DNA from: an uncultured Flavobacteriaceae bacterium
GTDB taxonomy: Bacteria; Bacteroidota; Bacteroidia; Flavobacteriales; Flavobacteriaceae
Assembly (NCBI GenBank): GCA_943788095.1
Contig: CALSOZ010000001.1
Coordinates: 248,001 to 312,000, forward strand
Reading direction: 5' to 3'
Length of the DNA: 64,000 bases
Each line of letters opens with the position of its first letter. Position 1 is the first letter of the stretch. The notes below the pieces were generated by a model, which worked only from the letters and a program-made list of their open reading frames with translations, made no database searches and was not told the origin of the DNA. The translations under genes were made by a program, and so were the position numbers. Shown here piece after piece: positions 26,837-35,898 of the stretch.

Positions 26837-28075
26837 CTAATGCTCATTTAATCTAAAATCTGGGTATGCGTCCATTTGGTGTTCGTGTGCATCAAGACCT
26901 TCTAGTTCTTCTCGTTCCGAGACTCTAATACCCATGGTCTTCTTTAATGCAAATATGATAAGGAAAGAAGTCGCGATACAAAACACAGCATAACACAAAA
27001 CGCCAACGAGTTGTACTAGAAACTGATCAACCCCTGCTTTGGCGCCAAAAAGTCCAACAGCTAAGGTTCCCCAGACACCACATATAAGGTGTACAGCAAT
27101 GGCCCCAACAGGGTCATCTAATTTTATTTTATCGACTAAGCTCACCGTAAATACTATGAGTGCGCCAGCAATCGCTCCAATGAGGATGGCATCTTCCGGG
27201 CTCATTTGATCGGCGCCAGCAGTAATCCCTACAAGTCCTCCTAAAATACCATTTAGGAACATTGTTAAATCTAAGTTTTTATATAAGACCGTTGAAGTAA
27301 TCATTGCGACGACACCACCAGCGGCAGCGGCCAAACAGGTGGTTACCAAAGTTAAGGATGTTGCTTCGGGGTTTGCGGATAATACAGAACCGCCGTTAAA
27401 TCCAAACCAGCCCAACCAAAGAATAAGAACTCCAGCCGTTGCTAATGGGATGTTGTGTCCTGGAATGGCCTGAGACGTTCCATTATTAAACTTCCCAATC
27501 CGAGCTCCTAAAAGGTAAACAGCGACTAAAGCAGCCCATCCCCCCACAGAGTGGACGAGGGTAGATCCCGCAAAATCATAAAAGCCTTCCGCATCTCCAA
27601 TGGTTAGCGACGATAAAAATCCGCCACCCCATTGCCAAGATCCAGCAATTGGATAGACAAACCCAACATATACAACCGTAAAAATCATAAAGGCTCCGAT
27701 TTTCATACGTTCCGCAACGGCTCCAGAAACAATTGTTGCGGCGGTTGCGGCAAACATGCCTTGGAATAAAAAGTCGGTCCACCACGTATAACCCCCATCT
27801 GCATACTCGGCAGTCATGCCGTTTTCTGGAGGGCTTATCCCTGGAACAATAGACCCTATAAATCCATTAAAGTCTCCAGGGTACATTAAGTTAAAGCCTA
27901 TCATATAGTAAAGGAGAAGCCCAACAGTTATAATAAAGATGTTTTTAAATAAAATATTAATTGTGTTTTTTTGACGTGTGAGCCCAATTTCTAGAAATGC
28001 AAATCCAGTATGCATAAAAAAAACGAGCGCCGTACAGATCATCATCCATACGTTATTGATAGTTAGTAATTCCAT
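26837..28075 (-). CDS. amt: Ammonium transporter (glnK-linked)
   Basis: A 412-residue Amt/Mep/Rh channel with 11 expected membrane helices. The twin pore histidines are in DFAGSTLVHSVGG and IAVHLICGVWG. It starts directly with the first helix and shows no cleavable signal. The C-terminal tail has the conserved segment RVSEREELEGLDAHEH, through which PII acts. It lies 5 bases after the PII gene on the same strand, the classic glnK-amtB arrangement. A second paralogue lies 600 bases upstream. Confidence 0.97.
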   Translation of the reverse strand: MELLTINNVWMMICTALVFFMHTGFAFLEIGLTRQKNTINILFKNIFIITVGLLLYYMIGFNLMYPGDFNGFIGSIVPGISPPENGMTAEYADGGYTWWTDFLFQGMFAATAATIVSGAVAERMKIGAFMIFTVVYVGFVYPIAGSWQWGGGFLSSLTIGDAEGFYDFAGSTLVHSVGGWAALVAVYLLGARIGKFNNGTSQAIPGHNIPLATAGVLILWLGWFGFNGGSVLSANPEATSLTLVTTCLAAAAGGVVAMITSTVLYKNLDLTMFLNGILGGLVGITAGADQMSPEDAILIGAIAGALIVFTVSLVDKIKLDDPVGAIAVHLICGVWGTLAVGLFGAKAGVDQFLVQLVGVLCYAVFCIATSFLIIFALKKTMGIRVSEREELEGLDAHEHQMDAYPDFRLNEH

Positions 28076-28080
28076 AGTTG

Positions 28081-28419
28081 TTATTTTAATGTATTTATGC
28101 CTTTTTCGCCGGTTCTAATTCTATAGACTTCATCGACCTGTGATACAAAGATTTTTCCATCACCAACATCGCCCGTAGAGCCTGCTGAAAGGATCGCCTT
28201 GATGGTCACTTCTTCAAAATCATCATTTACCACAATAGACAAATAGCGTCTTTGGATATCACTTGTGCTGTATGAAACACCCCTGTATACATGGCCTTCT
28301 TTTTCGTTCCCAAGACCTGTAACGTCCCAGTACGAGAAGAAATTGACACCGACTTCGTGCAGGGCTTTTTTGACACTAGAAAATTTAGATTTTCTAATGA
28401 TTGCTTCTACTTTTTTCAT
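28081..28419 (-). CDS. glnK: PII nitrogen regulatory protein
   Basis: PII senses 2-oxoglutarate and ATP/ADP and blocks Amt when nitrogen is plentiful. The 112-residue protein starts MKKVEAIIRKSKF and has the C-terminal signature GDGKIFVSQVDEVYRIRTGE. The T-loop reads EGHVYRGVSYSTSDIQRRY: the tyrosine equivalent to the E. coli uridylylation site (RGAEY) is kept, but the loop is one residue shorter and its outer half is quite different. The operon is glnK-amt1, with a palindromic operator and a -7 box just upstream. Confidence 0.96.
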   Translation of the reverse strand: MKKVEAIIRKSKFSSVKKALHEVGVNFFSYWDVTGLGNEKEGHVYRGVSYSTSDIQRRYLSIVVNDDFEEVTIKAILSAGSTGDVGDGKIFVSQVDEVYRIRTGEKGINTLK

Positions 28420-28442
28420 AGGTTTTAAATTTAGTTTGAATT

Positions 28443-28487
28443 CAAAAATAATTAAAAATATAAATACCCCTAAATTTTTAGGGGTAT
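28443..28487 (-). promoter_or_regulatory. glnK-amt1 promoter with palindromic operator
   Basis: A palindrome with 11-base arms, ATACCCCTAAA (28464-28474) and TTTAGGGGTAT (28477-28487), is separated by TT. On the minus strand TATTTTTG (28450-28443) matches the -7 box TAnnTTTG exactly. The palindrome centre is 25.5 bases from the first base of the box, so it would be near -40, replacing the -33 element. That is where a class II activator binds. The expected leader is about 18 bases. The core CCCTAAATTTTTAGGG recurs upstream of gltB. Confidence 0.75.
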
Positions 28488-28562
28488 AGTATGTGTTTTT
28501 ATGAATATGACAATAATACCCCGTTTATTTTGAAGGGCTTGTTTCTAAATAGTATTAAACAT

Positions 28563-28596
28563 AAAAACCCTAGAAGCGCGAGCCCCTAAGGTTTTT
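28563..28596 (-). terminator. Terminator after amt2
   Basis: AAAAACC (28563-28569) pairs with GGTTTTT (28590-28596), with a further 3 bp after one mismatch and a GC-rich loop. On the minus strand it ends in five T. It separates amt2 from the glnK promoter. Confidence 0.7.
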
Positions 28597-28669
28597 AACA
28601 CAAACTAAAAATCACAAACTAATTTTTAATTTTTTTAGAGTAAATGAATGCTCCAATATTGTTTTGAAG

Positions 28670-29959
28670 TTAGTCTTGACCTCTTTCTCTTTTACCAGGA
28701 TATGCAATAGATCCGTGCTCAGAGATGTCTAATCCAGCAACTTCTTCTTCTTCTGTAACTCTCAATCCAACAGTTTTCTTAAGGATTCCAAAGACTACAA
28801 AAGAAAGAACAACAGCCCAAACAGCATATGCCAACCCTCCAGTCAATTGTGCTACAAGTTGAGCAGAACCACCTCCGTTAAAGATCCCAAGTCCAGCATC
28901 GCCGTCTACACCCCAAAGTCCGATTACAATCGTTCCCCAGAATCCAACAACTCCGTGAACAGAGGCTGCACCAATAGCATCGTCTATTTTAAGTTTCTTT
29001 TCGATAATTTCGATAGAGAATACCACAATGATACCACCAATAAGTCCCGCTAATACAGCACCACCAGCAGTCATGTTTCCACAACCTGCAGTAATACTGA
29101 CCAATCCAGCTAACGCACCATTTAAAGATTGCGCTAAATTTGGCTTACCGTACCAGATCCAAGTGGTGATCAGTGCACCTAATGCACCAGCCGCCGCAGC
29201 AAGGTTGGTAATTAACACGACTGTTGAAGCAGCAACCGCATCGTCTCCACCCCAAGCAAGTTGAGATCCACCATTAAATCCAAACCATCCTAACCAAAGG
29301 ATAAACACCCCTAAGGTTGCTAATATCTGGTTGTGACCTGGAATAGGCATTACTTTTCCATTTACAAATTTTCCAATTCTAGGACCTACCATGTAAGCAG
29401 CAACTAAAGCAGCAAAACCACCTACAGCATGTACGATAGACGATCCAGCAAAGTCAATAAACCCTAGCTCTGTCAACCATCCTGATCCTTGCCATTGCCA
29501 TCCCCCTGCAATTGGGTAGATGATAGCAGTCATAACGATTGAAAAGATAACGTACGTTGAGTATTTTGTTCTTCCAGCGATAGCTCCAGAAACAATTGTT
29601 GCAGCCGTTGCAGCAAACATTGTTTGGAAGAATAAATCAGCCCCTTCACCTTGCATGATGCCACTCCAGAAAAACCATCCGTTTGTAGTATCGCCATACA
29701 TTAAAGAGTATCCTACAAACCAGTAGGTAAGAGATCCTACAGCAATATCCAGCAAATTTTTCATTGCGATGTTCACTGCATTTTTGGACCGTGTCATTCC
29801 AGATTCTACTAAAGTAAAACCTGCTTGCATGAAGAATACTAAGATACCAGATAATAGCATCCATAACATTCCCATGTCGTCCTTGATCGCTCCAGCAAGA
29901 CCCTCAACCGCAGCGGCATCCTGTATTACTAGAGGTAAGTTGTTAATTAAATGTGACAT
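28670..29959 (-). CDS. amt: Second ammonium transporter
   Basis: A 429-residue Amt paralogue with an N-terminal extension of about 30 residues before the first helix. The pore histidines are in DFAGSSIVHAVGG and AASVHGVVGFWG, and the tail carries RVTEEEEVAGLDISEHGS. It follows the porin gene by 35 bases with no promoter or terminator between them, so both are probably on one transcript. Having two different Amt proteins suggests different affinity or regulation, which the sequence does not settle. Confidence 0.97.
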   Translation of the reverse strand: MSHLINNLPLVIQDAAAVEGLAGAIKDDMGMLWMLLSGILVFFMQAGFTLVESGMTRSKNAVNIAMKNLLDIAVGSLTYWFVGYSLMYGDTTNGWFFWSGIMQGEGADLFFQTMFAATAATIVSGAIAGRTKYSTYVIFSIVMTAIIYPIAGGWQWQGSGWLTELGFIDFAGSSIVHAVGGFAALVAAYMVGPRIGKFVNGKVMPIPGHNQILATLGVFILWLGWFGFNGGSQLAWGGDDAVAASTVVLITNLAAAAGALGALITTWIWYGKPNLAQSLNGALAGLVSITAGCGNMTAGGAVLAGLIGGIIVVFSIEIIEKKLKIDDAIGAASVHGVVGFWGTIVIGLWGVDGDAGLGIFNGGGSAQLVAQLTGGLAYAVWAVVLSFVVFGILKKTVGLRVTEEEEVAGLDISEHGSIAYPGKRERGQD

Positions 29960-29994
29960 AAATTATATTTTTGGTTGGTTAATATTTACGGGTC

Positions 29995-30990
29995 CTAGAA
30001 AGAGTAAACGGCAGCAATTGTAAGCGCTGTGGCGTTTTTTTCAGCGGCAATCCCTTCAATAATGTAATCGTCAGAACTATCGTAACGTAATTCTGTGATT
30101 AGTTTTAAGTTGTCGTCTAACTGTGTGCTACCAGTAAAGGTTAAGGCTAAAACATCTTCGCTGTCATCTGCAGAAGTGTATGAGAAAAATTCTGGACGCA
30201 ATCCTAATGCAAACGTTTCAGAGAACGTGTTTTCTAGGTAAAAAGCAACTCCTTGGTATCCAGATTCTGTATCATCAGAGTATGCATAAGCAGCGTTGAT
30301 TCCTACGAAAAATGAGTCAGAGGCATTAAAACCTCCTGTGTAATCTACAAAAATAGCGTCCGTTGGAGCTGATGGAATATCTACAGAGCCATAAATGAAG
30401 TTTAGGTATTGCCCTTTATATCCAACCTGAGCGCCAAATTGAGTTGCCCCGCTCTCATTAGCGTCAGCACTAGAAATAGCATGTGCGTTAGTTATCGCTA
30501 ATAAAAAAGATAGATCTTCACTTGCAGCGTAGTCTAACTTCACACCTGTGTGAGAAAATGGACCTGCGTTAAATAAATAAGATACAGAATAGTTAAAGTT
30601 AGCTGCAGGAGAAATCACTTCATATCCTAAAAAGGTGTTGAACTGTCCAGCAGTAATTGTAACGGATTCACTTAAATTATAGTAAGCGTACAATTGGTTG
30701 ATGGCTCCAGCCATGTTTGCATCGTCAGCTCTTGGGCCAAATGCAAGATCAGCAACAACACCAGACTTGGCGCCTTCATAAGAAAACACGGTGTTTGCCA
30801 TTCCCAATCCAAATCCATTTGCTTTTTCTGGATTTGCAATTAACAGTCCAGGAGTTCCTGTCCCATCTACTGTGTTGGTGGTGCCGTACACATCTACTGT
30901 ACCAGATACTGATAATTTAGGAGCTTCATCCTGTGCGTTTAGAGTCATTGCTCCAACAAAAACAATTGCACTTAAAATAATTTTTTTCAT
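29995..30990 (-). CDS. Outer-membrane beta-barrel porin linked to ammonium transport
   Basis: The 331-residue protein has a signal peptide cleaved after about residue 20 (MTLNAQ), alternating amphipathic strands through its length, many aspartates, and a C-terminal aromatic residue (AAVYSF), all typical of an outer-membrane barrel. It belongs to the Bacteroidota putative porin type. It lies upstream of amt2 and shares a promoter with it, which suggests a role in letting ammonium or a small nitrogen compound across the outer membrane; that is inference. Confidence 0.85.
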   Translation of the reverse strand: MKKIILSAIVFVGAMTLNAQDEAPKLSVSGTVDVYGTTNTVDGTGTPGLLIANPEKANGFGLGMANTVFSYEGAKSGVVADLAFGPRADDANMAGAINQLYAYYNLSESVTITAGQFNTFLGYEVISPAANFNYSVSYLFNAGPFSHTGVKLDYAASEDLSFLLAITNAHAISSADANESGATQFGAQVGYKGQYLNFIYGSVDIPSAPTDAIFVDYTGGFNASDSFFVGINAAYAYSDDTESGYQGVAFYLENTFSETFALGLRPEFFSYTSADDSEDVLALTFTGSTQLDDNLKLITELRYDSSDDYIIEGIAAEKNATALTIAAVYSF

Positions 30991-31031
30991 AATAGTTAAT
31001 TTTAGTAGTTAATAAATTTTAGTTAACGGCC

Positions 31032-31074
31032 CAAAACTAACAATAAACAAACAAAACCCTTAAAAAAATAGGGT
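31032..31074 (-). promoter_or_regulatory. Porin-amt2 promoter with degenerate palindromic operator
   Basis: CCCTTAAAAAAATAGGG (31057-31073) is a looser, one-base-longer version of the glnK operator. On the minus strand TAGTTTTG (31039-31032) is an exact TAnnTTTG box, 26 bases from the palindrome centre. That is the same geometry as at glnK. The leader to the porin ATG would be about 35 bases. Confidence 0.6.
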
Positions 31075-31107
31075 ATAATAATTAATTTTTACATAATATT
31101 TAGTTTA

Positions 31108-31154
31108 ACCCCCTAAATTTTTAGGGTATGTCTGTTTTTTGTATAATATTTTCG
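31108..31154 (+). promoter_or_regulatory. Palindromic operator upstream of gltBD
   Basis: CCCTAAATTTTTAGGG (31111-31126) is identical to the core at glnK. Toward gltB, TATTTTCG (31147-31154) matches the -7 box with one mismatch, 28.5 bases from the centre; a TA dinucleotide also lies at exactly 25.5 bases (31144). The gltB start is 250 bases further on, so the leader would be long. Confidence 0.6.
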
Positions 31155-31401
31155 ATATTTCAATAGTCTGTTCTTTTTTTATGAATTTTTTTTGTGACGA
31201 TTGTCTATATATATAGATCAATAAATAAGTGCTCTATTTTCAATTGATTATTCGATAGTCTTAGGAGGGTTTCATTGCTCAAAATGCATTAATAGGTATT
31301 CTAAATTGGAATTTCGAAAAAGTGACGGAGCTTTTTTTAAAATCGATTTTTACCAATTATATTACATCTTTATTAAGGTTCAACCAGAAATAATTTTAAG
31401 T

Positions 31402-34400
31402 ATGTTAAAAAAACAAGGTCTTTATTTACCAGAATTTGAACACGACAACTGTGGTGCAGGGTTTATATGTAGTTTGACAGGGAAACGGTCCAATGATATC
31501 ATTCATAAAGCACTAGAAATTTTAGTCAAACTAGAACACAGGGGCGCAGTGAGTTCTGATGGAATAACAGGTGATGGTGCAGGAATTCTTATCGATATTC
31601 CTCATAAATTTTTCAAAATTTTCTGTGAATTCGAATTGCCAGAGGCAGGAGACTATGCCGTTAGTAATGTGTTTTTACCAAGAAAAGACAACCAAAGAGC
31701 GTATTGTGTTGAGGTGTTTGAATCTGAGCTGAAAAAGCAAGGGTTAGAAATTCTGGGTTGGAGAGATGTACCGGTTAACAGTGATGTTTTAGGAGAAATT
31801 GCCAAAACAACAGAGCCCATTGTGAAGCAAGTCTTTATTAGTAAATCGGAGACCAAACAAACGGATTTTGATTTTAATCTTAAATTATTCGCTGCACGAA
31901 AAATCGCAGAACACACAATTTATGACTCCAAACTATCGGAGTCGAAATTCTTTTACCTTCCAAGTCTTTCTACTAAAATAATTATTTTTAAAGGCTTATT
32001 AAAGCCAGAGCATATCAACGAATATTATCTGGATCTATTTAATTCTGCCTTAGATACACGATTGGCTTTGGTACACCAACGTTTTTCAACCAATACATTT
32101 CCTACGTGGGATCTAGCACAGCCATTCCGATATATATGTCATAATGGAGAGATTAACACCTTAAGAGGAAATGTATCTCGCATGTTTTCTAGAGAAGAAA
32201 TCATTAAAAGTGATGCTTTTGGAGATGATATTAAAAAAATAATCCCCACAATTCTTAAAGGCAAATCCGATTCAGCGACCTTAGATATGGTGGTCGAATT
32301 ATTATTAATGACTGGTCGTTCGCTTCCTGAAGTCATGATGATGCTGGTTCCTGAAGCTTGGGAGAAAAACCCGGACATGTCCGATTCCAAAAAGGCTTTC
32401 TACGAATACAATTCTTGCCAAATGGAGCCATGGGATGGTCCTGCGTCTATTCCGTTTACCGATGGAAATTTTATTGGTGCCGTTTTAGACCGTAATGGAT
32501 TAAGACCTTCTCGATATACGGTTACTAAAGACGGAAATGTGATCATGTCCTCTGAGACGGGCGTGGTCGATATTGAACCCGAAGACGTAGAATTCCATGG
32601 ACGATTAGAGCCAGGAAAAATGTTTCTAGTTGACATGAATGAAGGGCGCATCGTCAATGATGAAGAGATTAAAGAAAAAATTGCTGCCAAACAACCCTAC
32701 AGAAAATGGTTGAACGAAAACTTAGTACACCTGAAAGACATATCCGCCAAAAAAGGACCTATTAAATATAAGGAGGTTGACTTAAAGAAAAGAGAAGTCG
32801 CTTTTGGATATACAAAAGAGGATTTAAACACCATTATCCGCCCAATGGCTCAATTAGGAAAAGAACCGATTGGCTCTATGGGAAGCGATACACCAATCGC
32901 TGTTTTGTCTGAAAGACCTCAACTTATTTATAATTATTTCAAGCAAATATTTGCACAAGTAACCAACCCACCTTTAGACGGGATACGTGAAGAATTAATT
33001 ACAGACATCAGTTTAACGCTTGGGAGCGACACTAATATTTTTGATTGCAATTCGGAAGCCTGTAAAAAACTAAAAATTCAAAACCCCGTTATTTCAAAAC
33101 ACGATTTAGATAAAATCAGAAATTATGACACGAATCCTAATTTCAAAGTAGAATCTATTTCGATGCTGTATGAAGTCAATCGGGGCTTAAACGAGTTAGA
33201 AATTGCGCTTGAAGCTTTAGTAACCAAAGCCTCTAAAGCCATAGACGACGGTGCAAACATTATCATTTTATCCGATCGATTTGTAGATGAAAATCACGCA
33301 CCAATTCCAGCACTTTTAGCCTGTTCGTATGTAAATCATGCGCTCCACAAGTTAAACAAACGTTCTCGAATCAGTCTTATTATAGAGTCCGCTGAGCCTA
33401 GAGAAGTGCATCATTTTGCCCTTTTATTTGGATTTGGCGCGAGTGCGGTAAATCCATATATCGTTAATGAGATTGTAGAAAATCAAATTAAAGACGCTGA
33501 AATTACCGATTTAGAATACCTCACGGCCATCAAGAATTATAACAAAGCCATTGGAAAAGGGATTCTGAAAGTGATGAATAAGATTGGAATTTCTACATTA
33601 AACTCCTATCGTGGCTCTCAATTATTTGAGTGTGTAGGAATCAATACAAATACCGTTGAAAAATACTTTCCAAATACGCCAACACGAATTCAAGGAATTG
33701 GGTTAAGAGAAATTGAAAAAGAAATTTTAAAACGTCATAAGAAAGCATTCAACCCCAATATCGAATCCGATATTGAAATTGGTGGGGAATATCGATGGCG
33801 TCGTGGTCAGGAAAAACACATATTTAATCCATTGACTGTTGCGAAACTTCAAGAATCGGTTCGCACCAACAAAGCCTCTACTTTTAAAGAATACTCGGAG
33901 CTTGTAAACAATCAGTCTACGAGATTAATGACCATTAGAGGTCTTTTTGAATTTGATCAATTTGATCCAATTCCAATTGATGAGGTGGAGCCTTGGACCG
34001 AAATTGTAAAACGTTTCAAAACAGGGGCCATGTCTTATGGATCTATTAGTAAAGAAGCGCATGAAAACTTAGCGGTTGCAATGAACAGAATTGGCGGAAA
34101 AAGTAATTCTGGAGAAGGTGGAGAAGATGAAGACCGTTTTTATAAAAACGCACAAGGCGATTGGAGAAACTCAGCAATTAAACAAGTTGCCTCTGGGCGA
34201 TTTGGAGTGACGTCTAATTATTTAACCAGTGCGAGTGAAATTCAAATAAAAATTGCTCAAGGCGCGAAGCCCGGAGAAGGGGGACAATTACCAGGCCCTA
34301 AAGTGAATCGAGAAATTGCAAAAACAAGAAATTCAACGCCTTATGTAGGATTGATTTCACCACCACCGCATCATGATATTTACTCGATTGAAGATTTATC

Positions 34401-35898
34401 ACAATTAATTTACGATGTAAAATCGGCGAATAGAGCGGCGCGAGTGAATGTAAAATTAGTCTCAGAAATTGGAGTAGGAACCGTAGCTGCAGGCGTTTCA
34501 AAAGCAAAAGCAGACGTTGTTTTAGTTTCTGGTTTTGACGGCGGAACAGGTGCATCACCATTAACCTCTCTAAAACATGCTGGACTTCCTTGGGAGTTAG
34601 GGATTGCCGAAGCACAACAAACATTGGTAATGAACAATCTGAGAAATCGAATTGTTTTGGAATGTGACGGACAATTAAAAACGGGTCGAGATGTGGCAAT
34701 AGCATGTCTGTTAGGCGCCGAAGAGTTTGGTTTTGCAACCGCTCCTTTAGTCGCTTCAGGATGTATTATGATGCGTGTGTGTCACCTGAACACATGTCCT
34801 GTCGGGATTGCAACTCAAAACCCAGAACTACGTAAAAAATTCAAAGGAAAACCAGAACACGTTGTGAACTATATGTATTTCGTCGCACAAGAATTGCGTG
34901 AAATCATGGCGCAACTAGGCTTTAAAACGGTTAATGAAATGGTGGGTCAGGTTCAAAAATTAAACCGCAATAAAGCAATTGAACATTACAAAGCTTCAGG
35001 AATTGATTTAACGCCAATTTTACACAAAGTAGAAGTTGCAGAAGATGTTAAGTTATTCAACACAGAACAACAAGATCACAACCTCGATGTCCATTTAGAT
35101 TTTAAAATAATCAAACAAGCACATCAAGGTATTTTTAGAAGACAACGAACACACTTGAAAATGCCAATCACCAATATTGATAGAGCGGTTGGTGCGATTT
35201 TAAGTAATGAAATTTCTAAAATTTACGGTGCAGATGGTTTGCCACATGACACCATAAACATTGATTTTAACGGGTCTGCAGGACAAAGTTTTGGCGCGTT
35301 TACCACGAAAGGGGTAACCATGACTGTTCATGGAAACACGAATGATTATTTAGGAAAAGGATTGTCTGGCGCAAAACTAATTATCAAAGTTCCAGAAACG
35401 AGTACGATTGTTCCAGAAGATAACATCATCACAGGAAATGTCACCTTATATGGTGCAACAGCCGGAGAGGTCTATATTAATGGAAAAGCTGGCGAACGCT
35501 TTTGTGTTCGGAATTCGGGTGCACATGCAGTCGTAGAAGGGATTGGCGATCACGGTTGTGAATATATGACCGGAGGTGTTGCTGTGATTCTTGGAAAAGT
35601 TGGTAGAAACTTTGGTGCTGGAATGAGTGGAGGCGTAGCCTATATTTTAGATGATGACAATACATTCACTAAAAACTGTAATGGAGCAGACTTAAATATC
35701 GATCCCGTGGAGCTTCAGGACGATGTGAATCAATTGAGAACATTAATCGAAAATCATTTTGTAGCGACGTCAAGTCCTTTAGCAAAACGAGTTTTAGAAA
35801 ATTGGGAGGCGATGCTTCCTAAATTCAAAAAAGTACTGCCAGAAGAATACAGACAGGCTTTATTAAGATTAGAAAAAGAACAACTAGAAACAGTTTAA
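31402..35898 (+). CDS. gltB: Glutamate synthase large subunit
   Basis: GltB makes two glutamates from glutamine and 2-oxoglutarate. I chose the ATG at 31402 (MLKKQGLYLPEFEHDNCG), which leaves a 16-residue propeptide before the catalytic Cys17 of the N-terminal amidotransferase domain; the upstream TTG extension is unsupported. The central and FMN domains follow with GFDGGTGASPLTSLKHAG. The 3Fe-4S cysteines are in CIMMRVCHLNTCPVGIATQ, and the C-terminal beta-helix ends the 1498-residue protein. gltD starts 2 bases after its stop. Confidence 0.98.
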   Translation: MLKKQGLYLPEFEHDNCGAGFICSLTGKRSNDIIHKALEILVKLEHRGAVSSDGITGDGAGILIDIPHKFFKIFCEFELPEAGDYAVSNVFLPRKDNQRAYCVEVFESELKKQGLEILGWRDVPVNSDVLGEIAKTTEPIVKQVFISKSETKQTDFDFNLKLFAARKIAEHTIYDSKLSESKFFYLPSLSTKIIIFKGLLKPEHINEYYLDLFNSALDTRLALVHQRFSTNTFPTWDLAQPFRYICHNGEINTLRGNVSRMFSREEIIKSDAFGDDIKKIIPTILKGKSDSATLDMVVELLLMTGRSLPEVMMMLVPEAWEKNPDMSDSKKAFYEYNSCQMEPWDGPASIPFTDGNFIGAVLDRNGLRPSRYTVTKDGNVIMSSETGVVDIEPEDVEFHGRLEPGKMFLVDMNEGRIVNDEEIKEKIAAKQPYRKWLNENLVHLKDISAKKGPIKYKEVDLKKREVAFGYTKEDLNTIIRPMAQLGKEPIGSMGSDTPIAVLSERPQLIYNYFKQIFAQVTNPPLDGIREELITDISLTLGSDTNIFDCNSEACKKLKIQNPVISKHDLDKIRNYDTNPNFKVESISMLYEVNRGLNELEIALEALVTKASKAIDDGANIIILSDRFVDENHAPIPALLACSYVNHALHKLNKRSRISLIIESAEPREVHHFALLFGFGASAVNPYIVNEIVENQIKDAEITDLEYLTAIKNYNKAIGKGILKVMNKIGISTLNSYRGSQLFECVGINTNTVEKYFPNTPTRIQGIGLREIEKEILKRHKKAFNPNIESDIEIGGEYRWRRGQEKHIFNPLTVAKLQESVRTNKASTFKEYSELVNNQSTRLMTIRGLFEFDQFDPIPIDEVEPWTEIVKRFKTGAMSYGSISKEAHENLAVAMNRIGGKSNSGEGGEDEDRFYKNAQGDWRNSAIKQVASGRFGVTSNYLTSASEIQIKIAQGAKPGEGGQLPGPKVNREIAKTRNSTPYVGLISPPPHHDIYSIEDLSQLIYDVKSANRAARVNVKLVSEIGVGTVAAGVSKAKADVVLVSGFDGGTGASPLTSLKHAGLPWELGIAEAQQTLVMNNLRNRIVLECDGQLKTGRDVAIACLLGAEEFGFATAPLVASGCIMMRVCHLNTCPVGIATQNPELRKKFKGKPEHVVNYMYFVAQELREIMAQLGFKTVNEMVGQVQKLNRNKAIEHYKASGIDLTPILHKVEVAEDVKLFNTEQQDHNLDVHLDFKIIKQAHQGIFRRQRTHLKMPITNIDRAVGAILSNEISKIYGADGLPHDTINIDFNGSAGQSFGAFTTKGVTMTVHGNTNDYLGKGLSGAKLIIKVPETSTIVPEDNIITGNVTLYGATAGEVYINGKAGERFCVRNSGAHAVVEGIGDHGCEYMTGGVAVILGKVGRNFGAGMSGGVAYILDDDNTFTKNCNGADLNIDPVELQDDVNQLRTLIENHFVATSSPLAKRVLENWEAMLPKFKKVLPEEYRQALLRLEKEQLETV

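Follow-up and report, generated by a model that had tools for sequence, protein, structure and literature searches.

A conserved pair of dyads upstream of ammonium uptake and assimilation genes of Flavobacteriaceae, the probable operator of a dimeric activator

What does a perfect palindrome do in the promoter of a flavobacterial ammonium uptake operon, and which protein would read it? The window analyzed here, a 64,000-nucleotide stretch of DNA from an uncultured Flavobacteriaceae bacterium, carries on its minus strand glnK (28081-28419), which encodes a PII protein of 112 amino acids and is the first gene of the putatively controlled operon, and behind it amt1 (26837-28075, minus strand), which encodes an ammonium transporter of 412 amino acids. 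The palindrome, ATACCCCTAAATTTTTAGGGGTAT, lies upstream at 28464-28487 (minus strand), with arms of 11 bases around a central TT and its centre at 28475.5. A TAnnTTTG -7 box, TATTTTTG, occupies 28443-28450 on the same strand, and the glnK start codon at 28419 lies 3' of this box. From the palindrome centre it is 25.5 bases to the near edge of the box and 32.5 to its last G. The original prediction, whose span of 28443-28487 takes in the box and the palindrome together, had noted the arms around TT, the distance of 25.5 bases to an exact TAnnTTTG and the missing TTG at -33, all of which we find again in the sequence.

The glnK-amt1 palindrome is real and not a product of chance. In 1000 dinucleotide shuffles of the 250 bases at 28420-28669, perfect arms of at least 11 with at least four G-C pairs never appeared, and arms of 11 of any make-up appeared seven times. 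Four other inverted repeats in the 64-kb window pass the same bar, and all four are terminator-like, with outer A/T runs. With up to three mismatches allowed, the 22-base palindrome core has no second match in the window's genome, an assembly about 75% complete.

A closer look shows that the palindrome has a partner. A distal, weaker dyad of the glnK-amt1 promoter lies at 28516-28539 (minus strand; centre, 28527.5), 52 bp upstream of the proximal one, with an A-rich element, CATAAAAAC, between the two at 28495-28503 (minus strand). Counterparts of this distal dyad are present in 12 genus relatives (L049-L060). The window also holds a second pair, in the promoter of the omp-amt2 operon, with the proximal dyad at 31053-31076 (minus strand; centre, 31064.5) and the distal dyad at 31106-31129 (minus strand; centre, 31117.5), 53 bp away and within the region common with the divergent gltB. 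Here the TAnnTTTG -7 box, TAGTTTTG, occupies 31032-31039 (minus strand), and 32.5 bp separate its last G from the proximal centre, the same distance as in the glnK promoter. The original prediction missed both the 28516-28539 dyad and the pair in the omp-amt2/gltB region. It had described a lone perfect palindrome; the site itself stands, while the unit is a pair of dyads separated by about 52 bp (five helical turns). Similarly, the perfect palindrome proves to be an extreme form of a looser dyad with a core of approximately ACCC-N11/12-GGGT.

The omp-amt2 operon begins with omp (29995-30990, minus strand), a gene of the BBP2, OmpL-like porin family (PF07642), and continues with amt2 (28670-29959, minus strand), encoding an ammonium transporter of 429 amino acids. 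A terminator-like hairpin 3' of amt2 (28562-28597, minus strand) splits this unit from glnK-amt1. As an observation in its own right, a BBP2 porin-family gene heading an amt operon is a candidate outer-membrane route for ammonium.

To establish how far the arrangement extends, 76 upstream regions of glnK, omp, and glnA from relatives were scored for two dyads 46 to 58 bp apart with a score sum of at least 29. The scoring consensus was derived from the window's own site, and controls were run with the same score. The original prediction had staked itself on conservation of the palindrome in orthologous promoters, and a pair is found in 58 of the 76 regions (19/28 for glnK, 16/19 for omp, and 23/29 for glnA), counts that are not independent, since genus regions share ancestry. 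Eight of the pair-bearing glnA regions come from outside the genus, and one further glnA pair, in G032, was judged by eye. Although spacings of 46 to 58 bp were allowed, the centres are 52 or 53 bp apart in 49 of the 58 pairs (25 and 24, respectively), with the remainder at 54 (n = 4), 51 (n = 3), 50 (n = 1), and 56 (n = 1). A TAnnTTT(G/A) box lies 30.5 to 34.5 bp from the proximal centre in 54 of the 58 pair-bearing regions, ending in G in 50, and the distance is 32.5 in 21 and 33.5 in 19 of these boxed regions. A TTG at -33 is present in 7 of the 54 and absent in 47. Between the dyads, ATAAAAA occurs in 35 of the 58. Among the 58 are glnK of L060, scored with a mis-registered pair, and the atypical L082, both of which were kept; L176 was dropped, as its glnA start was not found, and 30 of 39 glnA matches (those with loci) were read. 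In L082 (8440-8519), from a genome of another family (G038), two dyads about 52 to 54 bp apart directly abut the glnK start codon, and a possible TAnnTTTG box lies upstream of them.

One dyad motif is thus common to operons of ammonium uptake and assimilation: glnK, omp-amt, and glnA. The original prediction had pointed to glnK, amt, gltB, and glnA as the genes at which relatives should be searched. No dyad pair is found within 250 bases before the start of the window's gltB (31402-35898, plus strand), which encodes the glutamate synthase large subunit and is divergent from omp. Control of gltB by the omp-amt2 pair, at least 272 bases before its start, is possible.

A further question is whether the palindrome acts as RNA. 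Both strands fold well, and a terminator scan flags the palindrome, as would suit a terminator, an attenuator, or a structured leader. Its location upstream of the -7 box speaks against this, as does the strong constraint on its position relative to that box. Moreover, arm complementarity in both dyads is about what column make-up predicts, with no covariation, and at the centre of the proximal dyad complementarity falls below expectation. A search of 28380-31450 against Rfam gave no match up to an E value of 1. Arms that do not covary imply a DNA site, and we regard an RNA hairpin as extremely improbable.

Eighteen of the 76 regions lack the pair, and 10 of these precede genes further down same-strand clusters headed by a pair-bearing gene: glnK after omp or amt2 (L061 and L069 to L073), omp as the last gene (L077, L078, and L080), and glnA after omp-amt (L167). 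In L071 and L072, the gap of about 145 to 240 bp from amt2 to glnK has no pair, and a hairpin precedes glnK in L071 and L073, so that some of the ten may be separate units lacking the pair. In L075 and L081 the gene follows close behind a porin-like gene, with no pair before the porin-like gene either, and in L076 a contig end leaves 88 bases before glnK. The five glnA regions lacking the pair belong to G019 and to four genomes of other families. G019 (glnA) and G021 (glnK cluster head and glnA), which lack the pair, belong to the same family. No dyads are seen in the glnK promoters of seven genomes that represent other families in the class, the best single-dyad score being 14.1. A further 14 regions stand outside the 76, among them L083-L087, G021, G050, gltB, G026, and L233. 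No pair occurs at five loci of distant glnK or amt paralogues (L083-L087) or at the glnK cluster head of G050; a pair is present at omp of G026 and at glnK of L233. G026 also has a second glutamine synthetase locus (L220; G026:C21) with a dyad pair before glnN, and its first glnA sits behind omp-amt.

Specificity was assessed with other genes and with reversed patterns. Among 908 upstream regions of other genes, 34 score at least 29, with some repeats where loci overlap; these are 16 omp, 14 glnN (region common with glnA), 3 loci fetched for holding a dyad, and 1 other (L309), for a net control rate of 1/875. A search of 25 genomes for one dyad plus the box, which missed known sites in other genomes, gave 19 matches in 13 genomes, against 4 for the reversed pattern; 13 of the 19 are glnK, omp, or glnA promoters, and there is no other recurrent target. 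A looser pattern, whose spacer was too narrow, gave 13 matches in 11 of 120 genomes, against 18 for its reversed control, and 3 of the 13 are nitrogen promoters, including one in a new genus (L233). A one-dyad pattern with at most one mismatch gave 75 forward matches in 18 genus genomes, compared with 26 for the reversed control. Separately, a dyad, ACCCCTATGAATTAAGGGGT, lies between glycyl-tRNA synthetase-like and comF-like genes (named by eye) in the window's genome (L062, 4030-4049; G000:C2:32029-32048) and also in G008 and G013.

How would such a module act? In the F. psychrophilum promoters described in passages of one study, the sigma-A box spans -12 to -5 (PMC9723704). By this measure, the glnK start is predicted at about 28438, with its two dyads centred near -37.5 and -89.5, and the omp start would lie at about 31027. 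A proximal dimer would then cover the -33 region, where the TTG is lacking. From this geometry and from the targets, we conclude with a probability of roughly 0.78 that the palindrome serves as the proximal of two operator sites from which a dimeric activator would switch on glnK-amt, omp-amt, and glnA in Flavobacteriaceae, probably at nitrogen shortage. The case for activation comes from geometry and targets together, that for a nitrogen response wholly from the identity of the target genes. The dimer at about -37.5 would take over the missing -33 contact, as in class II activation. Another dimer, bound to the same DNA face at about -89.5, may assist through the RNA polymerase alpha subunits or by bending over the A-rich stretch, and occupancy of both dyads would rise at low nitrogen. 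That a dimeric, class II-type activator occupies a site replacing the -33 contact at nitrogen genes was already the original prediction, and the comparison favors it, as site position, box spacing, and the lack of a -33 TTG are recurrent features of the glnK, omp-amt, and glnA promoters. Of known arrangements, tandem sites match best, with a class II site joined by another one upstream.

Alternatively, a repressor might occupy the dyads and be released from the promoters at nitrogen shortage. A dimer bound to the proximal dyad, at about -26 to -49, would stand in the way of polymerase, the placement of the G038 dyads at the glnK start codon would suit repression, and a single promoter cannot separate activator from repressor. 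Against this, 47 of 54 promoters have no -33 TTG and thus look weak unaided, and constant box spacing with in-phase upstream sites is typical of activators. We therefore consider repression unlikely and retain the two-site activator. The cis module itself is solid, and the identity of its binder is a testable proposal.

Four groups of regulators were weighed as binders and set aside. For the Crp/FNR family, the spacing of about 52 bp is the one point of agreement, as tandem CRP sites lie at -41.5 and -93.5. Crp/FNR half sites are TGTGA/TTGAT, which the dyad does not resemble, and no Crp-type protein exceeds the family cut-off in pair-bearing G002, G015, and G017 (assemblies 80 to 90% complete); a Crp/FNR binder is very unlikely. 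A regulator of the Lrp/AsnC family encoded near glutamine synthetase or glnK genes is somewhat less improbable, if still a long shot. Across much of the genus, as well as in G018, G026, G028, G034, G035, and G036, its ortholog shares a contig with glnA or glnK, at a distance of about 6 to 25 kb. Yet at an E value of 1e-15 no ortholog is found in pair-bearing G031 (complete) and G025, nor in G017, none of the 30 Lrp loci has a pair upstream of the Lrp gene (best sum, 25.6), and known Lrp sites, at about 15 bp, also count against it. For both families, it is the genome distribution that does not fit. The response-regulator-like gene beside glnA in the window's genome (L063, 5305-5694) was rejected: it is truncated, and several pair-bearing genomes yielded no relative. 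GerE proteins of about 930 to 967 amino acids were taken, by judgement, for glycan regulators; a SusC/SusD-like neighbor was seen by eye in 9 of 12 genomes read, and the one protein scanned has a Y_Y_Y domain.

NtrC-type control from sigma-54 promoters would suit nitrogen targets, and NtrC sites are dyads. It is close to negligible here, as sigma-A TAnnTTTG boxes stand at a fixed spacing in these promoters, and none of the 58 pair-bearing regions contains TGGYM-N6-8-TGC or GG-N10-GC in the last 130 bases upstream of the start codon. In passages on F. psychrophilum, sigma-54 genes are mainly those of protein quality, envelope, and motility (PMC9723704).

Several features of the neighboring loci deserve mention on their own. 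The ORF of L063 (G000:C7:93304-93690), downstream of glnA, encodes 129 amino acids and is response-regulator-like; its relatives in the genus genomes G002, G003, G006, G009, G010, and G013 lie in open frames of 231 to 243 amino acids and have a patchy distribution. In G009 (L064, 2080-4003), five near-identical tandem ORFs of 95 to 119 amino acids, about 390 to 400 bases apart, look GIY-YIG-like by eye. A nitrogen island comprising glnA, glnN, purM, prfA, pyrF, amt-glnK, crcB, ilvE, and an Lrp gene, several of them named by eye, appears in varying order in L081, L208, L209, and L077-L080.

As the half site TACCCCT fits the NarL heptamer, the GerE proteins of 15 genomes were examined. A GerE protein of 207 to 210 amino acids is encoded between nadE and dnaG in G002, G009, G012, G015, G017, G023, G025, G026, and G031, and in G012, G015, and G017 it is the sole GerE match of response-regulator size. 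The ortholog thus occurs in 9 of the 11 pair-bearing genomes examined and in none of the 4 that lack the pair (the window's own genome is outside this set), a distribution with a hypergeometric probability of 0.011 in which five of the nine come from one genus. No ortholog was found in G043, G058 (no GerE match), G050, or G019, all of which lack the pair at glnA. For G019, whose glnK region is incomplete, 18 of 22 GerE matches were fetched, and its best response regulator is 38% identical to the candidate, versus at least 58% for orthologs. In pair-bearing G013, a draft about 90% complete, none of four GerE matches is orthologous, and in G038 no ortholog is among the 6 of 10 GerE matches read.

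All three candidate proteins scanned have a PF00072 receiver and a PF00196 GerE domain over the cut-off, and the nearest solved relatives include NarL, VraR, and EvgA. At the position of the phosphate-accepting Asp, 89 rows, at least four of them duplicates, show Glu in 72, Thr in 9, Ser in 6, and Pro and Asp in 1 each. The best 80 candidate loci listed are mostly from Flavobacteriaceae or its genera, for example, Kordia, Aquimarina, Gelidibacter, Psychroserpens, and Formosa, with a few metagenome-assembled genomes carrying other labels, and both nadE and dnaG are in the locus in 77 of these 80. The recognition helix EKTVSTYK is identical in the nine candidates found through GerE; the other 80 loci were searched for with this helix as one of two patterns, and its constancy among them is therefore no evidence. 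No kinase gene adjoins the candidate in any of the nine loci viewed. Nor is there a sign of autoregulation, as no pair at a spacing of 50 to 54 reaches 29 upstream of the candidate in the 80 loci; at spacings of 46 to 58, one locus (L309) scores 29.6, which we take as chance.

This orphan NarL-type regulator with its Asp replaced is the leading candidate for the binder, its link to the sites being correlative. The dimer on the dyads may be this protein, which would not be phosphorylatable in the usual way, a more weakly supported step than those above. A stronger statement, which we consider possible if on balance doubtful, is that the nitrogen master activator of Flavobacteriaceae is a dedicated, hitherto undescribed orphan NarL-type regulator, kept between nadE and dnaG and without the phosphate-accepting Asp (Glu in most species). 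It would sense nitrogen status in a way that does not involve phosphorylation, and its action through paired 24-bp dyads at a 52-bp spacing would have arisen independently of NtrC and actinobacterial GlnR.

Marine Flavobacteriaceae are major degraders of algal sugars, and nitrogen supply therefore matters to them. Little seems to have been described of how Bacteroidota register nitrogen shortage and adjust transcription to it. Among the matches listed in the open literature on Bacteroidota nitrogen control and promoters, titles and abstract beginnings name no matching regulator or site. In Prevotella, passages of one study report large ammonium effects on glnK/amtB, with a direction that differs between passages and no transcription regulator named there (PMC5552732), and the main text of another report does not mention glnK and amtB (PMC12316311). 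The paired operator and the candidate, as read from genomes, point to an undescribed nitrogen switch of flavobacteria. An exactly defined and portable operator, a regulon predicted to span three operon types, and a single candidate protein bring the question within reach of direct tests.

Known systems resemble parts of this arrangement. The NarL heptamer is TACYYMT, with 2 bases between heptamers; TACCCCT fits it, as does the inverted arrangement, whereas 8 bases separate the heptamers here. Tandem CRP sites of class III likewise place two in-phase dimers about 52 bp apart with the proximal one near -40, but the motif is another and three pair-bearing genomes hold no Crp-type protein over the cut-off. 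BvgA, of the NarL family, has a recognition helix that we take to be similar to EKTVSTYK. As proposed here, BvgA-type regulators bind as dimers at inverted half sites and activate from more than one site. Passages on B. holmesii fhaB describe two inverted repeats centred 51 bp apart (PMC2225982). The flavobacterial module differs in its half site, ACCCC(T)A, its nitrogen targets, its phylum, and a candidate without the phosphate-accepting Asp. GlnR, finally, is of the OmpR type and uses other boxes, while the candidate here is NarL-type and tied to its sites by correlation. The two would nonetheless be alike in placing nitrogen control under an atypical response regulator, as described for actinobacterial GlnR, with amtB among the targets (PMC3087709, PMC5826061).
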